Both the position numbers and the translations under genes were made by a program. A DNA stretch of 21,292 nt from a virus. Under the pieces are notes generated by a model. It saw only the letters and a program-made list of their open reading frames with translations, did not search any database and was not told where the DNA came from. The stretch lies in IMG/VR virus record IMGVR_UViG_3300025151_000366, positions 1 to 21,292 of that record; one strand, given 5' to 3'. Shown in pieces: positions 945 to 20,050 of the stretch (its first letter is position 1; each line of letters begins with the position of its first letter).

Positions 945-3142
945 TATTCAAACTCCACTAAAGTTACATGTGTTCTTGTTCTATGGGTATAAGATGCATC
1001 CGTATCATTTTGTGTACGGTTTACATAGACAGTTGTTGCTCCATCTCCAGCACCAAAATAAAATTTATAACTTACTTGTGATGTTGTATTTGGACTATCT
1101 ACTATTGTACCTGTTATGGTTGTTGCTGCTCTGTTGCCATCACCATTGGTATCATAGTTACCAAACAATCCTCCTTGTCTACTACTTGCTGCTGTACCAT
1201 CTAAACCTGACACATGAGCATAACCACCACCACCTATATCTCTATACAACCTTACACGTAAACCAGCATGTTGTGCATGTTTTACTTGGGGTATAGTGAA
1301 ATGTATCATAACTTTATGTGATGTAGATGATGGAGTAATGGTATACGCAATCGTTCCAGCATGGTCTGATGTAGAATTAGTTATGCTTATTGCATATAAA
1401 GTAGCATCTGTTGCATGGGTAATTTGTTTTATCTTACCTGACGATGGGGTAGTAAATGATAACTGTCCAGAGCCATCTGTCTTTAACACTTGATTAGCAG
1501 AACCATCTGCTTGTGGATATTTTAATCCATCAATAATGACATCACCTGTACCATTAGGCGTTAGACTAATGTCATTGTTTGCACCATCAGCAATAACGAT
1601 AGAACCAGAGTTAGTACCATTATTGGTATTTAATGTTAGGTCGCCAGTACCTTGTGTTGTGATCGTAGCATTAGCATTGTTATCACCTACTTGTACTGTA
1701 TCAGCACCAAGGTTAATATCACCTGTGCCATTAGGAATAATATCAATATCAGCATTTGAGGTAGATACAATGTCTTGACCATTGACATCTAAATCACCGC
1801 CCAGTTGTGGTGAGGTATCACCTACCACTTCTGTCAATGCTGTACCTACACCTAACTCTCCTGCATCTACTTTTTTCAATGCACTATCTGTTGCATCAAA
1901 AAACATTAAGTGATCGCCTGATGCAATAGTTGTATCAGCTAAACCGCTAATGACTGATGGGTCTAGGTGTTCTTCCGATATAGCATCGTCTGCTATTTTG
2001 GCAGAAGTAATTGCATCAGCAGCAATTTTTGCAGTCGTAACTTGTAAATCTGCAATGTGTGCTGTGTCAATGCTGCCATCGGTATAGTGTTCAGAATCTA
2101 CTGCATCATCTGCTAGTTTTGCACCTGTGATTGCATCGGCTGCTATTTTCGCTGTGGTTACTTGTAGGTCTCCAATGTGTGCTGTATCTATAGAACCGTC
2201 TGTATAATGTTCTGAGTCTATCGCATCGTCTGCTATCTTTGCTCCTGTAACTGCATCAGCGTTTATCATTGCTGTTTCTACAGCGTTATTAGCAATAGTG
2301 GCTGCTCCTGTGCTGCTAATCGTAATATCGCCTGATACCGCTTTGTTATCAAAAGAATCAGAGCCATCATAAATTAGTATATGACCCGATGCTAACGAGC
2401 TAATGTTGGTATCAGTTAGTTCAGCCAATGTATCTGATGCTGCAACGCTAGCATCAACATACGCTTTGATTGATTGTTGAGTTGCCAGTTTAGTTGCTGA
2501 GTCAGACGACATATTATCTTCATCTGCTATCGTAAACCCATCAAATTGATTTAACTCTGCTGTTGTCAAAGTACAACCATCTAGTATATTTAATTCTGCT
2601 GCTGATGCGGTAACGCCTGTTAAAGCAAAAGTAGATAACTCTAATCCTGTTCCATCAGAATTATATTGTATGTGTTTGCCTGCGTTATCAGACACTGTTT
2701 CATTGTATGGTAAATACAATGGGCCTGATGTAGTAAATTCTGTGCCTGTTACTGTTCTGGTTGTTGTTGGAGAAAGCTGGATAGCTCTATCCAAGTTTTC
2801 TAATATTTGCTGTTGCCTTATTAAAATATCGTCAAACTCAGCATTTAAAGATGTTGTGCTTATTGCTGAACCTGTAGAAAAAGCTGTTGTTCTGGCATGG
2901 CCTTTGTTGCCAATAATTGTTACCTCATCTCCTGATGTAACTGCCGAACCAAAATTAACCGTTCCTGTTCCATCTGCATTTAATGATACTGAGTAATGAG
3001 TTGTTAATGTTTTTAGAGTATCTTCAACATAAACTTTTATATCTGTATCTGCCTCTACTTGAAAAGAAAACGCAAACGCTGTGCCACCTGTACTTGTGTG
3101 CTGCTGCCTTCTTGCTACATCGTTAATATCAAAAGTTGCCAT
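944..3142 (-). CDS. Tail fibre protein with T7 gp17-like N-terminus
   Basis: A 732-residue fibre. Residues about 1-125 resemble the tail-attachment domain of T7 gp17: FDINDVARRQQHTSTGG, a beta-rich stretch with KVYVED, and LNAEFDDILIRQQQILENLDRAIQL just before the shaft, where T7-type fibres have a helical joint. The middle holds repeats: two near-identical 40-residue units at 303-382 (ADDAxDSEHYTDGSIDTAHI...) followed by a partial one, typical of trimeric shafts. After that come NGTGDINLG/NGTGDVIIDG-like turns, and then a C-terminal domain from about residue 565 with SSTSHKVMIHFTIP, probably the receptor-binding head. No chaperone or sialidase motif was seen. It lies after the internal virion genes, as in T7. 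It shares its start (TAATG) with the stop of the upstream gene. Confidence 0.93.
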   Translation of the reverse strand: MATFDINDVARRQQHTSTGGTAFAFSFQVEADTDIKVYVEDTLKTLTTHYSVSLNADGTGTVNFGSAVTSGDEVTIIGNKGHARTTAFSTGSAISTTSLNAEFDDILIRQQQILENLDRAIQLSPTTTRTVTGTEFTTSGPLYLPYNETVSDNAGKHIQYNSDGTGLELSTFALTGVTASAAELNILDGCTLTTAELNQFDGFTIADEDNMSSDSATKLATQQSIKAYVDASVAASDTLAELTDTNISSLASGHILIYDGSDSFDNKAVSGDITISSTGAATIANNAVETAMINADAVTGAKIADDAIDSEHYTDGSIDTAHIGDLQVTTAKIAADAITGAKLADDAVDSEHYTDGSIDTAHIADLQVTTAKIAADAITSAKIADDAISEEHLDPSVISGLADTTIASGDHLMFFDATDSALKKVDAGELGVGTALTEVVGDTSPQLGGDLDVNGQDIVSTSNADIDIIPNGTGDINLGADTVQVGDNNANATITTQGTGDLTLNTNNGTNSGSIVIADGANNDISLTPNGTGDVIIDGLKYPQADGSANQVLKTDGSGQLSFTTPSSGKIKQITHATDATLYAISITNSTSDHAGTIAYTITPSSTSHKVMIHFTIPQVKHAQHAGLRVRLYRDIGGGGYAHVSGLDGTAASSRQGGLFGNYDTNGDGNRAATTITGTIVDSPNTTSQVSYKFYFGAGDGATTVYVNRTQNDTDASYTHRTRTHVTLVEFE
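1997..2236 (-). repeat. Two tandem 120-bp units in the tail fibre gene
   Basis: In frame, residues 303-342 and 343-382 of the fibre are two copies of a 40-residue unit beginning [IL]ADDA[IV]DSEHYTDGSID and ending AADAIT[GS]AK. The unit boundaries fall at 2236, 2116 and 1996. A third, diverging partial copy (IADDAISEEHLD) follows. At the DNA level the copies differ at many third positions, so this is an old duplication under protein-level constraint, not a recent expansion. Confidence 0.88.
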
Positions 3143-6100
3143 TATTGCCTCTTACCTGTTCGTTTAAATATCTCATCCATCTCGTCAATCCTTGCTTTTA
3201 TTTTTGGATATTTTAAAAACCATTGTTGTTTACCTGCTGTTCTATACCTACTTACTACATTTTTAAATAAAGTTATTTGTTCTCCTACTGGAGCATTTTT
3301 AAAATCATCCATCTGTATCATTTCTTTTAAAGCATTTAACAATACAGGCTCGCCCGTCTCTTCTGGGTCATTCATAAGTCTAATCATATCGTTATATTCT
3401 TCTGTACTCAAATATATTCCTCTGATTTTTCTGTCTGGCATTGGAATCCCAAACCCGTATTTCAACATAAAATCGTCAACCTCATTGAACTTTGTATTGA
3501 CAACCTTGAATGGTGATATAATTGTGCCTTCCGCTCCAGTAACATCTTCTCCCCACAAGTTTAACTTGACAGGTAATTCTCTGTTATAAAAAGGACTTTC
3601 TTTTCTCAGCTTATTTAATTCTTCGTAAACAGCTATTATTGTTTGATTAATTCCATACTCTTCATTTCTTAATTCGTCAACCTGTAATTGAGTTAAAGAT
3701 TTATCGTAAATATTTTCATCTCCTATTTTATCTAAGTATCGGCCAAAACTACCAAATGGGTTAACAATAGGCCCTGCTGTAGCTGGTATTATTTTTTTTG
3801 TTAAAAAAGAAATCATAGCATCAAGTTTGTTTTCTTCATCGCTATACTGAAACCTAGAATAAGCTGATTGAAAATCAGTAAATATAGTCATAAAAGGTTG
3901 ACTTGTTAAATAAGGAAATATTGCTGTTATATTAGCATAAGCTAATCTTATTGTTTTTTCATCCCAACCGTCAGCATCTCCCCATTGTCCAGGTTTCATT
4001 AAAAACTGAGCAGTGTCTGCTGAAATAGCAAGTAACGCACTGATCGGTTCAAACCTTGAATATGAACGGCACTCAAAATTGCCAGCATCTTGTTTTGAAC
4101 ATATTGAATATGGCTGCAAACCTTTTCTAAAAAACGCTTGTCTTTCTGCTCTACCATAAGGAGCTTGCCCTGTAATAAAGAAACCTCCTTCATCTTCCGC
4201 TCCTGAACCATAAGTTAGCATACCCCACGAACTCATAATTCCAGTGCCAGTTAACATTTTTGAATGGGCTAGCTGCATTGCTCTTTTGCCGTTTCTTCCT
4301 AGCAAATCATCTCTTATTGCTTTGCTACCAGGCATACCAGGTATAATTAATGTTGGATTTCTTTTTGCAACCTCTAAATAAATATTAGTTACTGTTTTAT
4401 AAAACGGTACAAATATTTTTAGCGAAGGATGATTTAAAACTCCTTGTAATTTTTTAAACGCTCCGTCTGGCAGCTCTTGTTGGAATGTGCCTTGCAACCC
4501 TTCTTGTTTAATTATGTTTTGATCTGCAACCGATGGATTTGTTAATACTTTAGTTGCTGCCTCTCTGGCCGCCTCTTCACTTCCCCCTGTGTTGATAATC
4601 TCATTATATCTTCTTCTTGCTAGTTGTTTTTGTGCAACAATATATAAAACACCTTTGGTCATCTCATCAGACGCAACCAAAAAAGTACCAGGTATTCTTG
4701 CGAAATGGCCGTAAGCATCTAGGGTTTTTCCCATAATATATTTTGTTTTATTGTTTGGGTCTTTCCATGATGGATGTAAAACATCTGTGCTAACAGCTCG
4801 GTTTGACCCTAAGTCTAATTTACTAGAAGATGCTCTGCCACCACTTTTTAATGTTTGTATAAAAAACTCACCACCTACTTTGTTTGCCTCTTTAAAATTA
4901 TAAACAAGCTCCATGGCCTCACTAAGCATTACGCCATCTGGGTTATTGTACCCAGGTATTTTATTTAAGCCTGCTGCTATAAATTGTTCTCCGTATCGCA
5001 AAGTGTTAAAAGTTAAATTTGACACAAAGTTAACAACATGTGTTATAGGAGATGCAAGTAAAGTGTTTACAAAAACCTCAACGCCACCGTCTACGATTTT
5101 TCTAAACATTCCTTTTCTTACCATGTCTTGTTGTTTGTCTAATGGTAAAATTAAAAATCTTTTATGATATGCAATCATGTCTGATGGATTGCCCTTGTTT
5201 AATTCTTCTATACCTTTTAAAACAGTGCTTAATTCTTCGTTGCCAAAACCGTTGTAATCTTGTTTTGCTAACGCACTAAATCTTAATTTTCTAGCTGTTT
5301 CTGACATATCTCCTGACACCCTAGAAAGAAACAAACCATAGACTCTAAAATATTTATTTGCTTTTTCTAATAGCTGTGGGTTTGTTGGGTCAGTTTCTAA
5401 ATTTTTAATAGCATTAACATATAGCTTTCTCATAACCATTGTTTCTTGTATGGCTCTGTATATTTCTACATTTCCTAAAATGTCGCCTTTTTTTCTTTTT
5501 AAAACACTTCTATATAAATCAGGTAAATTTAATTCACTGGCTAGCTTTCGGATTGTTTCATTATCTACTGTTTGGTTGCCGCCTTGTCTTGTTATTTCGT
5601 CTGCAAAACTAAACTTTACTAAATCATCTAAATTGTTAATTTCGTCAGGGTCAGTAGTTCCCAATCTTTTTAATATATCGTCTACATTACCCTCTAATTG
5701 TTCTATAGGAATTTGGTCAAAATCTTTTAAAATACCGCCTACGCTGTCATACTCAATGTTGTCAACAACATCTAGAATAACTTGCCCGTTTTTTTGCTGT
5801 ACTAAATCTCCTTCTGGTAGATTTCTTTCATCTAGCATTTCCTCTATTTTTTGTTTTTTTGCTTTAATGTTTAACTCATCAATGCTTTTGTCTTTTAAAT
5901 CATCTTGCGGCACATCTTCGCCTTTAATGTTTTTAATTGTAGATTTTTTTGTTGTTTCTGTAGTTGTTTTCTCTAGTATTTTAGAAATACCGCCTGCAAC
6001 TTGTATACCTTCTTCTGGTAAATCTGAAAAAACAGATGAGTCAAGATCAGCAGCATCTAACGGTTTGCTGTCTTGTTCTAGCTCTTCTTCTTTTGTATCT

Positions 6101-6180
6101 ACAAGAATAGACGATTCTTGATTGCCTAACAGATCGTCTGTGTTAAGATTTTTTGCTGGTGGAGTTATGTCTTTAATCAT
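3142..6180 (-). CDS. Large internal virion/DNA-ejection protein (T7 gp16 position)
   Basis: A 1012-residue protein with a disordered, acidic N-terminus (residues 1-130, rich in D, E, K, S and T) and a long helical body. A distinctive segment at about 372-388, NTLLASPITHVVNFVSN, with nearby KGMFRKIVDGG, matches a motif I associate with very large phage virion and polyvalent proteins. SETARKLRFSALAKQDYNG lies before it. There is no lytic transglycosylase signature like that of T7 gp16. Hydrophobic stretches between about 365 and 410 could associate with membrane. Position (last of four large proteins after the tail tubes, just before the fibre) and size suggest the gp16-like ejection protein that spans the envelope during genome entry. 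It overlaps the upstream gene by 8 bases. The role is inferred from context. Confidence 0.7.
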   Translation of the reverse strand: MIKDITPPAKNLNTDDLLGNQESSILVDTKEEELEQDSKPLDAADLDSSVFSDLPEEGIQVAGGISKILEKTTTETTKKSTIKNIKGEDVPQDDLKDKSIDELNIKAKKQKIEEMLDERNLPEGDLVQQKNGQVILDVVDNIEYDSVGGILKDFDQIPIEQLEGNVDDILKRLGTTDPDEINNLDDLVKFSFADEITRQGGNQTVDNETIRKLASELNLPDLYRSVLKRKKGDILGNVEIYRAIQETMVMRKLYVNAIKNLETDPTNPQLLEKANKYFRVYGLFLSRVSGDMSETARKLRFSALAKQDYNGFGNEELSTVLKGIEELNKGNPSDMIAYHKRFLILPLDKQQDMVRKGMFRKIVDGGVEVFVNTLLASPITHVVNFVSNLTFNTLRYGEQFIAAGLNKIPGYNNPDGVMLSEAMELVYNFKEANKVGGEFFIQTLKSGGRASSSKLDLGSNRAVSTDVLHPSWKDPNNKTKYIMGKTLDAYGHFARIPGTFLVASDEMTKGVLYIVAQKQLARRRYNEIINTGGSEEAAREAATKVLTNPSVADQNIIKQEGLQGTFQQELPDGAFKKLQGVLNHPSLKIFVPFYKTVTNIYLEVAKRNPTLIIPGMPGSKAIRDDLLGRNGKRAMQLAHSKMLTGTGIMSSWGMLTYGSGAEDEGGFFITGQAPYGRAERQAFFRKGLQPYSICSKQDAGNFECRSYSRFEPISALLAISADTAQFLMKPGQWGDADGWDEKTIRLAYANITAIFPYLTSQPFMTIFTDFQSAYSRFQYSDEENKLDAMISFLTKKIIPATAGPIVNPFGSFGRYLDKIGDENIYDKSLTQLQVDELRNEEYGINQTIIAVYEELNKLRKESPFYNRELPVKLNLWGEDVTGAEGTIISPFKVVNTKFNEVDDFMLKYGFGIPMPDRKIRGIYLSTEEYNDMIRLMNDPEETGEPVLLNALKEMIQMDDFKNAPVGEQITLFKNVVSRYRTAGKQQWFLKYPKIKARIDEMDEIFKRTGKRQ

Positions 6181-7912
6181 CTTTGTTCTCTTCTTTTGCT
6201 TTTAATTGTTTTGCTGTTGCTCCTAATCCAGCAACAACTGCTCCTTTAGCTAGTGTTGATTTAGTTTTGCTTGCACCTGTTTTTAAATCAACCTCAAATC
6301 TAATAATGGCAGATTTTGATTTATTTTTAAACTTCCTTATTAAATTAGAGTCCCACTCTGTTTGAGTATATTTTTTTCTTTCAGCATAAGGAATATGAGA
6401 TTTGTCAATTAGTTTATTAATTTTTCCTGGTCTTATTTGTATTTCCATTGTAGTAGAAGGGTTGTTTGGATTTACAACTTGTGCGTGATAAGACCCAATG
6501 TGAGGTTTATATTCAACATCTAGCACCTCAAAATTTTCTTTTAATTTAGGTATTATTTCATTTTCTATTTGTTTCTTTGCCTCTTTAAATGTTCCTGGAA
6601 TTAATATTCTGTGTCCTTGTAGGTCTCCCATCTCTGATGGATTTTTGTTCTTTACTGTCATTTTATCAGAAATACTTTGTTGTTTTTTTACCCTTCCAAA
6701 AGTCTCTGCTTGTTGCCCGCCAGATTCATACTTAGGATTTACTACTTTTAAATTAAATAATTCTGCTATTTTATCCTGATTAGGTTTAAAAGTTTTTTTA
6801 TGAATATCTAACAGCTCTTCTAAATTATCTGATGTGTGATATACTTTATCTTGTATGGATATTTTTAAACTATCAGTGCCGTTGTTTTTTGACGATGAAG
6901 ATAATATATTGTCAGTGTCATCAGACAATGTATCTGTTGTCTGGGACGAACCAACCTCGTCTTTTGTGCCTACAGAAAAGCTAGGCCCTTCTGCATTTGA
7001 ATCAGTATCTAGACCAGTTGTGCCATCACTTGATCTGCCATTTAAAGGACTATCAGAAGATATGTTTGAGGTTGTTGATTGAGCGTTATTTTTAGCTTTT
7101 GCTGCTAATTTTACGACTGGTACAATTAACTCCGCTAATATACCAATAGGAGAATCTCCTAAAATATTTTTAAATTTTTGTTCAGCAACGCCTGCTGCGG
7201 TAGGGTCATTGCTAACCTCACCAAGATATTCAACTATACCACCAATTATCTTGCCGCTAGTTTCTTCGTTAACATTAAAAGTGTCTTTTAAAAAAGTAGC
7301 AAAATTACCTTCATCGGCTGGAGCAACGGCTGTAACTAAAGCGGTTTCTGCTCCTAGACCTCTTAATACAATTCCTTTTAGACCTGGTATCTTTAACACA
7401 TTGTCAAACATTTTGTAGATTCCAACTCCTGGCACTAGGTACTGACTTATTGTTTCTACGATTGTGCCGTAAGTTTCATTGTCATATTTTAATACACCCG
7501 AAGTTAATTTAGTTTCAAGGTCTTTATAGTTTTGATTAAATTCCATAAAATCTTCTTCGTTTAGCACGCCTAGCTGCGTTAGGCCAAGTCCTCCTAATTC
7601 AGTTAAACTTTGACCAATATTTACAACGGCTCTTGCTGCTGCTGTGCCTGTATCTACAACTACACTAGCAGCAGTGTTTTCATCAGGACTAAATGAGCTA
7701 ACAATATCATCAAGCCTAAATCCTTCTTTAAAACTATCAAGATAAGATTTGTTAGGGTCAGCATGTTCAAAAGTTCCTGTTTGTATGTTGTATTTTTTGT
7801 TTTTACTTTTTAAATATCCTTGGCCAGGCACTACATCAAAGTCATCTTCTGAGTCATATGCCTCAATACCTCGCAATATCTCTAATGTAATGTCATCGTA
7901 TTCTTCACTCAT
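6173..7912 (-). CDS. Internal virion protein with C-terminal RelA/SpoT-like domain
   Basis: A 579-residue protein in the internal-virion block. Residues 1-60 are acidic and Tyr-rich. Residues 80-270 are helical with hydrophobic stretches (VVKLAAKAK near 265-275). Residues 280-350 are a Ser/Asp/Thr-rich linker. Residues about 355-515 then show RelA/SpoT-type motifs in order: GRVKKQQSISDKM (406-418, like the substrate-binding R-x-K...SI..KM loop), GDLQGHRILI (429-438, like D-L-x-x-x-R), YKPHIGSYHAQVV (468-480, like the G-Y-x-S-x-H region but altered), MEIQIRP (489-495, like the catalytic E-I-Q-I-R), and HIPYAERKKY (506-515, like H-x-x-Y-E-x-x-R). The Glu and Asp are kept; the guanine-stacking Tyr is uncertain. 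It overlaps both neighbours by 8 bases. It may be ejected into the host; whether it is active is unknown. Confidence 0.7.
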   Translation of the reverse strand: MSEEYDDITLEILRGIEAYDSEDDFDVVPGQGYLKSKNKKYNIQTGTFEHADPNKSYLDSFKEGFRLDDIVSSFSPDENTAASVVVDTGTAAARAVVNIGQSLTELGGLGLTQLGVLNEEDFMEFNQNYKDLETKLTSGVLKYDNETYGTIVETISQYLVPGVGIYKMFDNVLKIPGLKGIVLRGLGAETALVTAVAPADEGNFATFLKDTFNVNEETSGKIIGGIVEYLGEVSNDPTAAGVAEQKFKNILGDSPIGILAELIVPVVKLAAKAKNNAQSTTSNISSDSPLNGRSSDGTTGLDTDSNAEGPSFSVGTKDEVGSSQTTDTLSDDTDNILSSSSKNNGTDSLKISIQDKVYHTSDNLEELLDIHKKTFKPNQDKIAELFNLKVVNPKYESGGQQAETFGRVKKQQSISDKMTVKNKNPSEMGDLQGHRILIPGTFKEAKKQIENEIIPKLKENFEVLDVEYKPHIGSYHAQVVNPNNPSTTMEIQIRPGKINKLIDKSHIPYAERKKYTQTEWDSNLIRKFKNKSKSAIIRFEVDLKTGASKTKSTLAKGAVVAGLGATAKQLKAKEENKDD

Positions 7913-9869
7913 CTTCTAATGCCTTTATGTATTCGTTCAAATCTTCTATTAAATTATCTAATTGTAATTGAGTATAAGTGTGTAACTTTTCTCCTTCCCA
8001 ACTACCAATACTTTCAATCCCCAAAAAATCAAAGCCAAGTGGGTCTACAATAGGGTTTGCATTTTCTCCCGTAAATTGTTCTTGGATAATTTGCAAAGTA
8101 TCTCTAATATGAGTAACTTCTCTTACATCATTTAACGCTGCATCTATTTCAGTAACGCTTGCAGTTTCAAAACTTTTTTGTTCTTTGTAATCAGGCAAAT
8201 CGTATAAATGATTATAAGCGTCATTAAATTTTTTCTTAACCAATGATGTTCGTAAATTCTTTTTTAGTGTTGTTTTTATATTGTTTTTAATTTCTTCTTC
8301 TTTATCTTTTTCTGTTATTCCTCTAGCAAAAGCTATAATTTCATTTTTTGTAACATCTGGGTTGCTATCTACATATTCTCTAAGTTCTTCTTTTTTTTCA
8401 GCAAACTTTTTTTGTAAAGCAACTTTTGATTTTTCTCCAATGTTTATTAAACCTTGCGGCATGTAATGCAATTTTAAATGTTCTGTTGCAAAACTCATTC
8501 CATCTTTTTTGCTTGTTTTTAATTCTTTTGCGTAATCTTCAAATGTTTTTGCACTAATGTAATTATTGTTTTTTGCCTCTACTAAATCATCTAATGATAA
8601 ATCACCTAGCCTAATTCGTTCTTCAATCAGTTTTTTTTCAGTAGAGTCAATATACATACCACTGTCTATATCGCCTTGTAACTTATCATTAAATGTTTCA
8701 AACTCTGCTGCTCCCATCATTACGCTTAAATCTTTTTGTATTTGATAAACTCTTGCTAAATCTTGTTCGCTGTTTTCATTTATTTTTAGATCAATTAATT
8801 CTTCTTTTAACTCTGTTATGGTTTTTGTAAACACAATATTTTTTTCTTTTTCCATTAACTCAGTTGTTGTATTTAAACCTTTGAGCCAATTCAAAGCATC
8901 TTTTCTAATGTTTTGTTTTTCATCTTCTGGCAAAGAGTTATATATAGCTTGGCTGTCTTTATCTCCATTAAATGTACCATTTATAACGCCTTCTAATGCT
9001 GTATGCCTAAACTCTTCTGTTCTATTTTGCGGAGAATCTAACCTTGTAAATAATTTATCTTTTTTGTATTTAATTATTTTTGTATTCCAATCTTTTGTAA
9101 ATGTTGTTATTTGACTTACGGTTGCTCCTAAATCTTTCATAATAGATATTTCTTTTAACAGTTCTCTTTGTAATACTTCGTCTAAATTAACCTCAATAGT
9201 TTCTCCTGTTTTTCGGTTTATAGCTCTTACATTGTAAGAATCACCCATCCAAACTTTTAGTTTATTAGTTAAAGCGTTGTTTGCGTATGCAGCAACTGTT
9301 ATTTGCTGGCTGGTTTTGTATTCTTCTATTTTTTTTACACCAAAAGATTTTCCGTATGTAGCTTGCGTTGTATTGGTTGCATTAATAAATTTTACTCTGG
9401 TTTCAGCGTCTACGCCTTTCATTGATTCTAAATAGCCTAATTTTATATTCTGCGTAATCCCTTGGTATTCTTCTAAACTTATATTTTTTTTAATTGCATC
9501 GTTGTATACCACCGCCATTTCTTCTTCGTATTCTCTTAGCATGTGAGACGACAATACAGATAATTGCGTTTGTCTTTTTGCTTTTCCTCTAGTAGTAACA
9601 GTATTGCCACCAATTAAATCTATTTTTTCTGTGTCTGTTGAATTGGCCCATTGATCTACATTTATTGGTTCGTCTAAAGCCTCTAATGCTCCTTGTTCTG
9701 CCATCTGTTGATCGTACATTTTAAAAGCAACATCAGTAAGCTGTCCTATTCTTTGCTCTAGGTTTTTTAAATTACCAGTATATTCGTTTGTTGCTTGTGC
9801 GTTCCCTTGTGGATTAGAAACGCTAACTCCAAAAGATTGTCTGCTGTATGGTTTTATAACTCTAGCCAT
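7905..9869 (-). CDS. Internal virion protein (T7 gp15 position)
   Basis: A 654-residue, highly charged and almost wholly helical protein. The N-terminus (MARVIKPYSRQSFGVSV, then LKNLEQRIGQLTDVAFKMYDQQMAEQGALEAL) is typical of the second internal core protein of marine podoviruses, from memory. The middle and C-terminal parts contain long heptad-like K/E/L stretches, for example around residues 330-470 and 480-600. No enzymatic motif, transmembrane segment or signal peptide was seen. It lies between the gp14-like protein and the RelA/SpoT-like protein, the place of T7 gp15, so it probably forms part of the ejectosome that lines the DNA channel during infection. The start has AGAGGA upstream. 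The end overlaps the next start by 8 bases, implying translational coupling. Confidence 0.75.
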   Translation of the reverse strand: MARVIKPYSRQSFGVSVSNPQGNAQATNEYTGNLKNLEQRIGQLTDVAFKMYDQQMAEQGALEALDEPINVDQWANSTDTEKIDLIGGNTVTTRGKAKRQTQLSVLSSHMLREYEEEMAVVYNDAIKKNISLEEYQGITQNIKLGYLESMKGVDAETRVKFINATNTTQATYGKSFGVKKIEEYKTSQQITVAAYANNALTNKLKVWMGDSYNVRAINRKTGETIEVNLDEVLQRELLKEISIMKDLGATVSQITTFTKDWNTKIIKYKKDKLFTRLDSPQNRTEEFRHTALEGVINGTFNGDKDSQAIYNSLPEDEKQNIRKDALNWLKGLNTTTELMEKEKNIVFTKTITELKEELIDLKINENSEQDLARVYQIQKDLSVMMGAAEFETFNDKLQGDIDSGMYIDSTEKKLIEERIRLGDLSLDDLVEAKNNNYISAKTFEDYAKELKTSKKDGMSFATEHLKLHYMPQGLINIGEKSKVALQKKFAEKKEELREYVDSNPDVTKNEIIAFARGITEKDKEEEIKNNIKTTLKKNLRTSLVKKKFNDAYNHLYDLPDYKEQKSFETASVTEIDAALNDVREVTHIRDTLQIIQEQFTGENANPIVDPLGFDFLGIESIGSWEGEKLHTYTQLQLDNLIEDLNEYIKALEDE

Positions 9870-9872
9870 TTA

Positions 9873-10448
9873 TCATCCTCTTAAAGATTTTGGACTGCTT
9901 AAATAAGTATTACTGCTGTAACTAAACGGACTACGGTTTATACTTCCTGCACTAGGATTAAATCCTGGCGTGCCTGTACTACTTGCTCCGCCACCACTTC
10001 CAAAACCGCTCATACCAAGATTTACTGCTCCGCCAATAATTGTCATAAGTGCTGCGTTGTAACCTGCACGCTTTGCATTATCTCCTGCTATTTTTAAATT
10101 TCTATATTCAATAATGCCTAGCTTGTCATCTAAATCCGCTTGTATTGCTTGAACATTAAAATCTTCTGCTCCTAAACGATAAGCATATAATGCGTGTGTT
10201 AAAGCTGAACCAGAAGAAGGGTCTGCTCCTCCCATAGCTTTGTAAGTAAACAAAGTAGAAACATTACGATTTAAATCACGCAAAACTTTCACCCCTTTTT
10301 CTTTACTGTTAACTACAGATGTTCTAGTTCTTAATTGAGATAATTTTGCCTCGCTGTCGTAATATTTTTGTTTTGCTTTTCCTGCTTGTATTTGTGAGTA
10401 CGCTTGAAATCCTGTACCTGCTACGATTGCTGCCATTGTCCAAAACAT
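9873..10448 (-). CDS. Internal virion protein (T7 gp14-like)
   Basis: A 191-residue protein with a hydrophobic N-terminus (MFWTMAAIVAGTGFQAYSQI), a helical Lys/Gln/Ala-rich middle (AGKAKQKYYDSEAKLSQL), a central AMGGADPSSGSALTHAL motif, and a second hydrophobic stretch ending in Gly/Ser-rich sequence (AALMTIIGGAVNLGMSGFGSGG). This architecture matches the gp14-type ejection protein that inserts into the outer membrane in T7-like phages. The start at 10448 is preferred over the inner Met at 10436 because AGGAC lies eight bases upstream of it. It begins two bases after the nozzle gene's stop and ends just before the gp15-position gene. Confidence 0.82.
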   Translation of the reverse strand: MFWTMAAIVAGTGFQAYSQIQAGKAKQKYYDSEAKLSQLRTRTSVVNSKEKGVKVLRDLNRNVSTLFTYKAMGGADPSSGSALTHALYAYRLGAEDFNVQAIQADLDDKLGIIEYRNLKIAGDNAKRAGYNAALMTIIGGAVNLGMSGFGSGGGASSTGTPGFNPSAGSINRSPFSYSSNTYLSSPKSLRG

Positions 10449-14767: not shown

Positions 14768-15151
14768 TTAATAATTTATATGATACCCGATATCTGGGTT
14801 AGTAGACATGAACTCTTTTTTGGCGGCTGGTTGATCCGTATAACCATCTTTATATGTATAATAGAAAACATCGTCTGGTAATTCATGTCCTTCTACAATT
14901 ACATGCCATTCTTTACCTGTTGGGGTTTTACCAATTCCATCTGGTTTGTATTCAATTACTTTATAAACAAACACTCCGTTGATAGGCTCATAATACCCAC
15001 CAAAATACCAAGCATCCTCGTCATACTCTTTTTCTCTTTCGTAATCCTCTTGCATTTCTTTAATACAGCTTTTGATATAAGAATCATACGCAGATTTGTA
15101 TTTTGATGTTTTGCTATCTTTTAAAATATATTTGTATTTATAGTCTGCCAT
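14768..15151 (-). CDS. Unknown 127-residue protein, leaderless, possible moron
   Basis: The protein starts MADYKYKYILKDSKTSKYKSAYD and is rich in Tyr, Lys, Asp and Glu, with a charged helical part (KEMQEDYEREKEYDEDAWYFGG) and a beta-like C-terminal half. I do not recognise a family. I choose the ATG at 15151 because it falls seven bases after a near-consensus -10 box, exactly where transcription should begin, so the mRNA would be leaderless; no SD exists. An in-frame TTG at 15175 would add eight residues but overlaps the second TTGACA of the promoter region. It sits between a methyltransferase and the capsid gene, outside the usual phage core order, with its own promoter. It may be an early or independently expressed host-takeover or anti-defence gene, but that is speculation. 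Confidence 0.72.
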   Translation of the reverse strand: MADYKYKYILKDSKTSKYKSAYDSYIKSCIKEMQEDYEREKEYDEDAWYFGGYYEPINGVFVYKVIEYKPDGIGKTPTGKEWHVIVEGHELPDDVFYYTYKDGYTDQPAAKKEFMSTNPDIGYHINY

Positions 15152-15157
15152 AAACAC

Positions 15158-15186
15158 ACTATAACATACTGTCAACTATTTGTCAA
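15158..15186 (-). promoter_or_regulatory. Near-consensus sigma-70 promoter (extended -10)
   Basis: On the minus strand, TTGACA (15186-15181) is followed by exactly 17 bases and TATAGT (15163-15158), preceded by TG one base away (TGTTATAGT, an extended -10). That is six of six and five of six consensus matches. The expected start of transcription is the A of the ATG at 15151. A second TTGACA (15175-15170) lies in the spacer, 11 bases after the first. The promoter sits in the short gap after the methyltransferase and would drive the 127-residue gene and probably the capsid gene behind it. Confidence 0.8.
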
Positions 15187-15204: not shown

Positions 15205-15762
15205 TTAAACTTCGTTTCCCCATACATCCCAACCTTCGGTTTTTTCTCTGGCAAAGAGTTCTATTCTTGGTAAATCTCCAAATAATAAATCAATTCGTTT
15301 TCTAACCTCATGTGGTTTTTTGCTGTGTTTTGTTCTTTCTGCTATAACTTTTTGATAAATGTTATTTATTTTTTTATATTTCAACATTTGTCCTTTAGTC
15401 CCTAATAAACATATTTCATAATTTTTCATTGTCCACGCACCTAAGTTCGCAACAGTTTTACCATTTTTAGTTATTTTTTCCCAAATAAAAACTACTGTTA
15501 CATATTTAAAACCCCAACTTTCCATAGTTTCAATGGCATCTTTTATGTGAGCATCAGTAGTCCATAAAAACAAAGCACAGTCTTTTTCTAATATATTTTT
15601 TACAGGTAAATTTTTAATCCAATTTTTACTTTGAGTTTCATAATGTTTGTTTATACTTGTAAACCTTACTCCATTGTATTTTTGCAATTCTTTACTGCTA
15701 AAAGACCAAGGCGGGTCAGCATAAATAATGTTGTATTTTTTGTCTGGAAAATTAAAAGACAC
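15205..15762 (-). CDS. MT-A70 family adenine-N6 methyltransferase
   Basis: A 185-residue protein with the catalytic DPPW motif at 16-19 (KYNIIYADPPWSF), LFLWTT at 64-69, the HSKKPHEVRKRID segment at 146-158 and the C-terminal RIELFAR...GWDVWGNE at 166-184. These are all in the order of MT-A70/IME4-like enzymes, which transfer a methyl group from S-adenosylmethionine to adenine N6. In a phage the likely target is DNA, for protection from restriction or regulation, but the sequence does not fix the substrate or site. It begins with GTG ten bases after the scaffold stop and has only a weak AGG upstream. It is placed between scaffold and capsid, where T7-type phages normally have nothing, so it looks like an acquired gene. 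Confidence 0.93.
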   Translation of the reverse strand: MSFNFPDKKYNIIYADPPWSFSSKELQKYNGVRFTSINKHYETQSKNWIKNLPVKNILEKDCALFLWTTDAHIKDAIETMESWGFKYVTVVFIWEKITKNGKTVANLGAWTMKNYEICLLGTKGQMLKYKKINNIYQKVIAERTKHSKKPHEVRKRIDLLFGDLPRIELFAREKTEGWDVWGNEV

Positions 15763-19294: not shown

Positions 19295-19563
19295 TATGTG
19301 TACCTCTTCGTTGTTTCGTATGGATTTCTCATCACGCCATCAGTCGGGGTCATTTCGCCACCCGTAACGCCAAGTTGAGGAATAAGTCTATCTTGCGAAT
19401 ACAGTAATCTACCGCCTTGTCGCATAGAGCGTTTTTTAGCCGCTAGTTTTCTTAACTCGGATTTTTCTTTTGCCTCAACAGATGCCTCTCTTTTGGCAAG
19501 TGCCTCGTCAGCCTCAGATGTGTCTACGGTTGGTACTTTTGGTGTTTTTAAAAAACTACCCAT
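19294..19563 (-). CDS. Small conserved phage protein
   Basis: An 89-residue protein: MGSFLKTPKVPTVDTSEADE, then a charged coiled-coil-like stretch (ALAKREASVEAKEKSELRKL, AAKKRSMRQGGRLLYS) and GVTGGEMTPTDGVMRNPY. I choose the ATG at 19563 (MGSFLK) because GAGG lies ten bases upstream; an in-frame ATG at 19581 would add MRGYLN and deepen the overlap with the acetyltransferase. Proteins beginning MGSFLKxPKxP are, in my memory, typical of the interval between terminase and portal. The role is unknown; it may take part in head maturation. Confidence 0.78.
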   Translation of the reverse strand: MGSFLKTPKVPTVDTSEADEALAKREASVEAKEKSELRKLAAKKRSMRQGGRLLYSQDRLIPQLGVTGGEMTPTDGVMRNPYETTKRYT

Positions 19564-20050
19564 GTTTAAATAACCTCGCATACATTATGTAATCTTCTTT
19601 GTCTGGCCCATATTGCCGACAAACCCCCTCTTGCGTAAAGCTCATTTTTTCTATCCATTTGATAGCTCTAGCATTATTTGCTTTAACTGTACAGTGGATT
19701 CTATGTAAATTCAACTGTTTTGCTGTTGCCAACATAAACTTAAATGCTCCCTTGTGAAATTTTGTTTTGTATTTAGATAACATAATGCGATCAGGTATCA
19801 TCCATATCTCACCTACATTAGGCCATAACTGAATAACGCCAAAGCACGCCATGGGTTTACCGTCAACGCAAACCGCATAACCGTACTCACTTGCTTTGTC
19901 CATGTGATCGTAATAATCGGGAAAATCTTGTATGTTTTGCAAATCTTCTGGATGCAAGTCCATAATTTTTAACAAGTATGAACGGAACGGCACAACCTGT
20001 ATGTTGGTGTTTTCTATCTTAAATATTTTTTCCAAATCTGCGTAAGTCAT
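19556..20050 (-). CDS. GNAT-family acetyltransferase-like protein
   Basis: A 164-residue protein with the GNAT fold outline. Residues 56-76 (YGYAVCVDGKPMACFGVIQLW) and 79-85 (VGEIWMI) give the central beta strands. Residues 96-112 (KTKFHKGAFKFMLATAK) cover the acetyl-CoA pyrophosphate-binding region, though the usual R/Q-x-x-G-x-G/A is not perfect. LHRIHCTVKANNARAIKWIEKMSF (115-138) is the strong motif B. The C-terminus is the usual short strand (DYIMYARLF). Similar proteins in podoviruses are encoded near the packaging genes and are sometimes compared with T7 gp13, which is needed for virion assembly. The substrate is unknown. It has a TAATG junction with the terminase gene and an 8-base overlap with the next gene. 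Confidence 0.85.
   Translation of the reverse strand: MTYADLEKIFKIENTNIQVVPFRSYLLKIMDLHPEDLQNIQDFPDYYDHMDKASEYGYAVCVDGKPMACFGVIQLWPNVGEIWMIPDRIMLSKYKTKFHKGAFKFMLATAKQLNLHRIHCTVKANNARAIKWIEKMSFTQEGVCRQYGPDKEDYIMYARLFKHG

Follow-up and report, generated by a model that had tools for sequence, protein, structure and literature searches.

RelA/SpoT-family domains have been described in phage proteins before. Iyer et al. (2017) described RelA/SpoT modules both as parts of phage polyvalent proteins and in fusion with MuF (PMC5512222), and prophage MuF-Apk2 toxins have been assayed (PMC12226406; see also PMC12691689, PMC5576092), so that RelA/SpoT domains on polyvalent proteins and on MuF virion toxins are already known. 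Here we describe such a domain in the window, the 21,292-nt stretch of viral DNA that was analyzed (positions 1 to 21,292 of IMG/VR record IMGVR_UViG_3300025151_000366). It is part of a protein of 579 amino acids (aa) predicted by open reading frame calling at 6173..7912 on the minus strand, the strand of all window genes given below. The gene has the same position in related loci. It sits between the gp15-position gene and the gp16-like gene of the ejection block, overlapping each neighbor by 8 bases, and we refer to its product as the slot protein. A RelA/SpoT-type nucleotidyltransferase (NTase) domain on this ejection-block protein is well supported by profile matches, and comparison with its relatives indicates that the domain is one among several exchangeable C-terminal cargos on a conserved N-terminal carrier.

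Like the polyvalent proteins, the slot proteins are multidomain, are predicted to be injected with the DNA and show extensive domain shuffling, and RelA/SpoT is among the phage-type domains of polyvalent proteins, in spirochaete and epsilonproteobacterial (pro)phages (PMC5512222). Unlike them, they have one putatively gp16-derived carrier with one to three cargos, occupy a fixed interval that in marine podoviruses is flanked by the gp15-position and gp16-like genes, and reveal cargo exchange between near-identical genomes. With the MuF-Apk2 toxins the slot protein shares a predicted virion-associated N-terminal domain followed by a C-terminal RelA/SpoT-family domain, with variable C-termini. 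It has, however, no MuF domain (none among its Pfam matches at E up to 1) and no immunity gene, which rules out a MuF toxin. Guanosine-type RSH enzymes carry SxH in syn3 and IR in syn4, whereas the adenosine-specific Apk2 carries GxN and YH (PMC12226406). The slot protein has the SxH and IR signatures and by these resembles the RSH side rather than Apk2. The toxSAS enzymes (FaRel2, PhRel2, CapRel; PMC11559606) are likewise NTases with kept catalytic acids, and pyrophosphorylation of tRNA may be common to both. Unlike toxSAS, the slot cargo is fused to an ejection-protein domain, has no antitoxin and lacks the guanine-stacking Tyr. A toxin–antitoxin module was ruled out, as both neighbors are ejection-block genes and there is neither a partner gene nor a fused antitoxin domain.

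The slot protein consists of the carrier domain (residues 1-275, 7088..7912), defined by a profile and alignments and conserved among slot proteins, a Ser/Thr/Asp-rich linker (residues 276-350, 6863..7087), seen in the sequence and in the alignment with the related contig L003, and the RelA/SpoT-type cargo domain (residues 351-545, 6278..6862), delimited by Pfam and the L003 comparison. The GC content of the cargo domain is 0.289 vs. 0.361 for the carrier. A search with 24,736 Pfam models matched positions 1-111 of the 113 in RelA_SpoT (PF04607) to residues 406-512 (6377..6697) with 33.9 bits and E 4e-8, the curated cut-off being 27 bits. A six-frame search of the record placed PF04607 at the identical site (E 2.9e-11). 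No other Pfam domain in the protein was above cut-off, and neither PHROGs, NCBIfam at its cut-offs nor PADLOC named it. The independent contig L003, with 64% identity in the domain, also matched above the cut-off (34.9 bits), and two independent profile matches rule out a chance match of motifs.

The original prediction, made from the letters of the window, had proposed a RelA/SpoT-like domain at 6368-6850 in an ejection-block protein and had listed the lack of a significant PF04607 match among the things that would count against it. The search came out in its favor, and the proposed motif order (GRVKK/SISDKM, GDLQGHRILI, GSYHAQVV, MEIQIRP, HIPYAERKK) was found at residues 406-514. The proposed interval covers the core and falls short of the entire domain at about 6278-6862. 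The domain and its protein context stood, with delivery and activity being conjectural; the gp16-related carrier and the exchangeable cargos had been missed.

All 21 signature residues checked are identical between the window protein and L003, including D430, E490, R407, K409, K417 and R435. Asp430 (6623..6625), the expected metal ligand, Glu490 of EIQIR (6443..6445), the expected catalytic acid, and the basic ATP-site residues align with those of Rel enzymes. In a phmmer search of solved structures GTP pyrophosphokinases ranked first, weakly, and a profile of the two sequences improved the structure-database match to E 2.6e-5 (9s6k). Between the two cargo domains synonymous divergence (dS) is about 1.4, which is near saturation, and non-synonymous divergence (dN) is 0.24. 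The resulting dN/dS of about 0.17 indicates that the domain is under purifying selection. Together with the kept catalytic residues this disfavors a decaying relic, an option the original prediction had held out.

Several observations weigh against a conventional, active synthetase or limit what can be read from the comparisons. In the window protein as well as in L003, the site of the guanine-stacking Tyr holds Ile472 or, in some alignments, a gap; the original prediction had already noted that this Tyr did not align cleanly. The acceptor loop reads H471-I-G-S-Y-H476 (6485..6502) vs. (N)-x-Y-x-S-L-H in Rel enzymes: the Tyr is lost, and the Ser and His of SxH are retained. Because of the absent Tyr we do not file the cargo as a canonical (p)ppGpp synthetase. 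By analogy with toxSAS (PMC11559606), the missing Tyr makes tRNA a live possibility as acceptor, and the domain might also bind rather than catalyze. An AlphaFold model of the cargo domain from two sequences was weak (pLDDT 49.3). In Foldseek its first 16 matches were all Rel/SpoT/SAS structures, with a best E of 1.5e-3 and none reaching E 0.001. VIA-align of the model core with Rel/SpoT/SAS structures gave Z 7.7 over 106 residues at 3.3 Å, a weak value, as Z below 8 can reflect merely a common arrangement. We count this ranking as mild support for a synthetase fold in the model, whose pLDDT of 49 is too weak to prove active-site geometry. The model of the carrier domain was uninformative. Finally, only two RelA/SpoT members were found, the window and L003, and the E-values behind the carrier comparison described below come from single-target comparisons.

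Relatives were gathered as 80 loci through the neighboring tail tubular protein B, since direct searches with the slot protein first found nothing. Judged by this tail protein, Methylophilales phage MEP301 is the closest relative in culture. Where the contig is long enough, the gene order is tailA, tailB, the gp14-like gene, the gp15-position gene, one slot gene, the gp16-like gene and the fiber gene, and the slot and gp16-like genes adjoin each other in the relatives as well. Slot proteins range from 204 to 991 aa, and the N-terminal domain of ∼275 residues is recognizable in nearly all of them; for two short ones, L011 and L018, the match to the carrier profile is no better than chance. RelA/SpoT cargo is present in 2 of the 46 complete slot proteins compared, near-duplicates counted, and among 39 related records only that of L003 matched PF04607. 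Scans of viral and genome contigs for further RelA/SpoT members gave L003 only, and phage and plasmid sequences searched by tblastn yielded at best weak matches, of which several bear the annotation GTP pyrophosphokinase; the back-translated search patterns were short, so that distant members may have escaped.

Other slot proteins carry other cargos. In L002 a Zeta_toxin domain (59.7 bits, cut-off 22.3) is followed by a second, unnamed domain, so that this sibling is multidomain like the window protein. Zeta domains also occur in virion or phage proteins such as the minor head protein of cyanophage PSS2, which in this resembles the L002 slot protein but has a different carrier. L010 carries Methyltransf_23 (29.2 bits), L062 carries DUF7178 (48.1 bits) and L055 carries DUF7178 below the cut-off. 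The cargo end of L036 and L090 matches the C-terminal part of phrog_2579 and is possibly ADP-ribosyltransferase-like, judged by eye alone. L072, L075 and L098 have a carrier with essentially no cargo, and many other slot proteins contain unnamed domains that recur in varied combinations. One of these (GYMVAPLKxTEI...YLDASVRIDN...IFDL) has no Pfam match and recurs in L002 (14832-17168), L009, L053, L059, L077, L079, L090 and L091. It corresponds to phrog_17808 in L090 and L091, occurs alone or beside Zeta or other domains, and is a candidate novel effector or accessory domain. L024, L030, L042, L048 and L070 share a long conserved cargo (GADMFGPKVSKFMQSLMGTSD...VPDIWFTRGFNRK), for which no Pfam family exceeds its cut-off and which may be related to the DUF7178-like cargo found in L055 and L062.

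The exchange of cargo can be seen directly by comparing L002 with L003. The two are mostly 98-99% identical through the gp14-like and gp15-position genes and then again from where gp16 begins. Within the slot gene the first ∼57 codons are nearly identical and the rest of the carrier has about 60-65% DNA identity. The cargos are unrelated, Zeta in L002 and RelA/SpoT in L003. Carriers that are 90-99% identical with different or absent cargo were also found in L048/L055, L007/L010, L072/L104, L098/L109 and L090/L091. As L002/L003 and these further near-identical pairs differ in cargo, its replacement is both recurrent and recent. The pattern suggests a cargo bay in which effectors directed at the host at the onset of infection can be exchanged.

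To place the carrier we used a profile built from 43 carrier domains. It weakly matched gp16 of Pelagibacter phage HTVC011P. In a profile–profile comparison (hhalign) with eight marine-phage gp16 proteins, carrier residues 84-275 aligned to residues 43-265 of gp16 (internal virion protein D) of cultured pelagiphages with 97% probability. Because hhalign E-values come from single comparisons, we judge this relation by its contrast with the controls (gp16 middle, gp16 C-terminal part and gp15), which gave 0.1-0.7%. The carrier and the gp16 of its own group gave 0.2%, while the gp16-like protein of the group matched residues 396-1181 of HTVC011P gp16 with 100% probability. In the window this gp16-like internal virion protein has 1012 aa (3142..6180), of which residues 219-990 make the match. 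On the other side of the slot gene lie the gp15-position internal virion protein (654 aa, 7905..9869), assigned by position, and the gp14-like internal virion protein (191 aa, 9873..10448; phrog_418). The carrier and the window gp16 thus both match parts of the gp16 of pelagiphages (HTVC011P, EXVC020P). Unlike in the cultured phages there are two genes instead of one, with cargo on the first piece, and the likeness was computed with marine-phage gp16. Cultured phages with a long gp16 (1192-1246 aa) have no separate slot gene. The simplest reading of these alignments is that gp16 was split in the window's group, or fused in the cultured phages, the N-terminal piece giving rise to the carrier. 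What sequence comparison establishes is the presence of the domain with its catalytic residues intact, the conservation of the carrier, the exchange of cargo and, through profiles, the carrier–gp16 relation.

On balance we favor the view that the slot protein is a detached gp16 N-terminus, co-packaged and ejected, that carries a RelA/SpoT pyrophosphokinase effector acting in the host. The carrier would be packed in the head together with the gp14-, gp15- and gp16-like proteins and would exit the capsid with the DNA. The cargo would then enter the host cytoplasm and use host ATP to pyrophosphorylate a 3′-OH, either of guanine nucleotides or of the tRNA CCA end, and host growth would be slowed or a host response blocked during the first minutes of infection. 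Packaging, injection, cytoplasmic entry, activity and substrate are what we infer here. In T7, gp14, gp15 and gp16 exit the capsid into the cell and form a conduit, the C-terminal part of gp16 ending in the cytoplasm and the N-terminal part in the periplasm (PMC8954989). By analogy, a carrier related to the gp16 N-terminus is likely to be ejected. A periplasmic location as for the T7 gp16 N-terminus would deprive a RelA/SpoT domain of ATP, which counts against our view, and cytoplasmic entry is an assumption. RelA/SpoT and Zeta domains require ATP and methyltransferases require S-adenosylmethionine, and for this reason we suppose a cytoplasmic destination for the cargo, a supposition that forms the weakest link of the model.

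The cargo could instead be a polymorphic toxin like MuF-Apk2, harming competing or superinfected cells and not serving the phage's own infection. The conserved N-terminal carrier with variable C-termini, which include the toxin-family domains RelA/SpoT and Zeta, follows the polymorphic-toxin pattern, and temperate phages are known to encode alarmone-synthetase toxins borne on MuF (PMC12226406, PMC5576092). An integrase was detected in 2 of 16 related records, as tyrosine integrase genes L134 (in the record of L070) and L135 (in the record of L062), and part of the phage group may be temperate. In the other 14 records, some of which are fragments, none was detected. Moreover, a small immunity gene usually follows MuF toxins (89%, PMC5576092), whereas the slot gene directly overlaps gp16; with 8-base overlaps on both sides no immunity gene fits in the window. 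Given the lack of an immunity gene and of a MuF domain in the Pfam search, and an integrase in so few records, an effector for the phage's own infection fits better than an anti-rival toxin, which we consider unlikely.

We regard it as improbable that the domain has lost or changed its catalytic activity and blunts the host stringent or defense response by acting as a decoy or by binding alarmones, nucleotides or tRNA. The acceptor-loop Tyr is missing from both members, and toxSAS-type defenses such as CapRel put phages under pressure (PMC9712102), but at 64% identity neither D430 and E490 nor any of the basic ATP-site residues has changed, a constancy that would be needless for a pure binder. 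Slightly less probable still is that the slot protein is not packaged and is an ordinary late or assembly protein that happens to be encoded in the ejection block. We found no proteomic evidence of packaging, and the cargo is dispensable, judging from L072, L075 and L098. Against this, the carrier matches the N-terminus of a gp16-class protein, T7 gp16 is ejected (PMC8954989), and the slot has a fixed position within the ejection block.

Elsewhere in the window, an MT-A70-type adenine methyltransferase gene (15205-15762; PF05063, 107 bits) and an adjacent small open reading frame without matches (14768-15175) separate the scaffold-like gene from the major capsid gene. As the corresponding gap in L002 is only about 150 bases, the two look like an insertion. 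A GNAT acetyltransferase-like protein (19556-20050) is encoded beside the terminase gene and also matches the internal virion protein family phrog_308.

The open-access literature that was searched yielded no report describing this carrier, such domains in this phage group, or a cargo swap of this kind between near-identical phages. All three appear to be new, the swap being a recent, natural one. As a more tentative proposal, uncultured marine podoviruses may have split gp16 to obtain an N-terminal cargo carrier whose cargo is rapidly exchanged, so that the virion would inject at least one host-directed enzyme, such as a RelA/SpoT domain, a Zeta kinase or a methyltransferase, before phage gene expression, the Tyr-less RelA/SpoT domain modifying a non-canonical acceptor such as tRNA. 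If true, marine phages use their DNA-ejection machine also for the modular delivery of effectors, with a payload exchanged between nearly identical phages, which is the pattern expected under fast selection by host defenses. The slot proteins would yield concrete candidate host-takeover or anti-defense enzymes for assay, and inspection of the gp15–gp16 interval would be a simple genomic rule for finding more such effectors.
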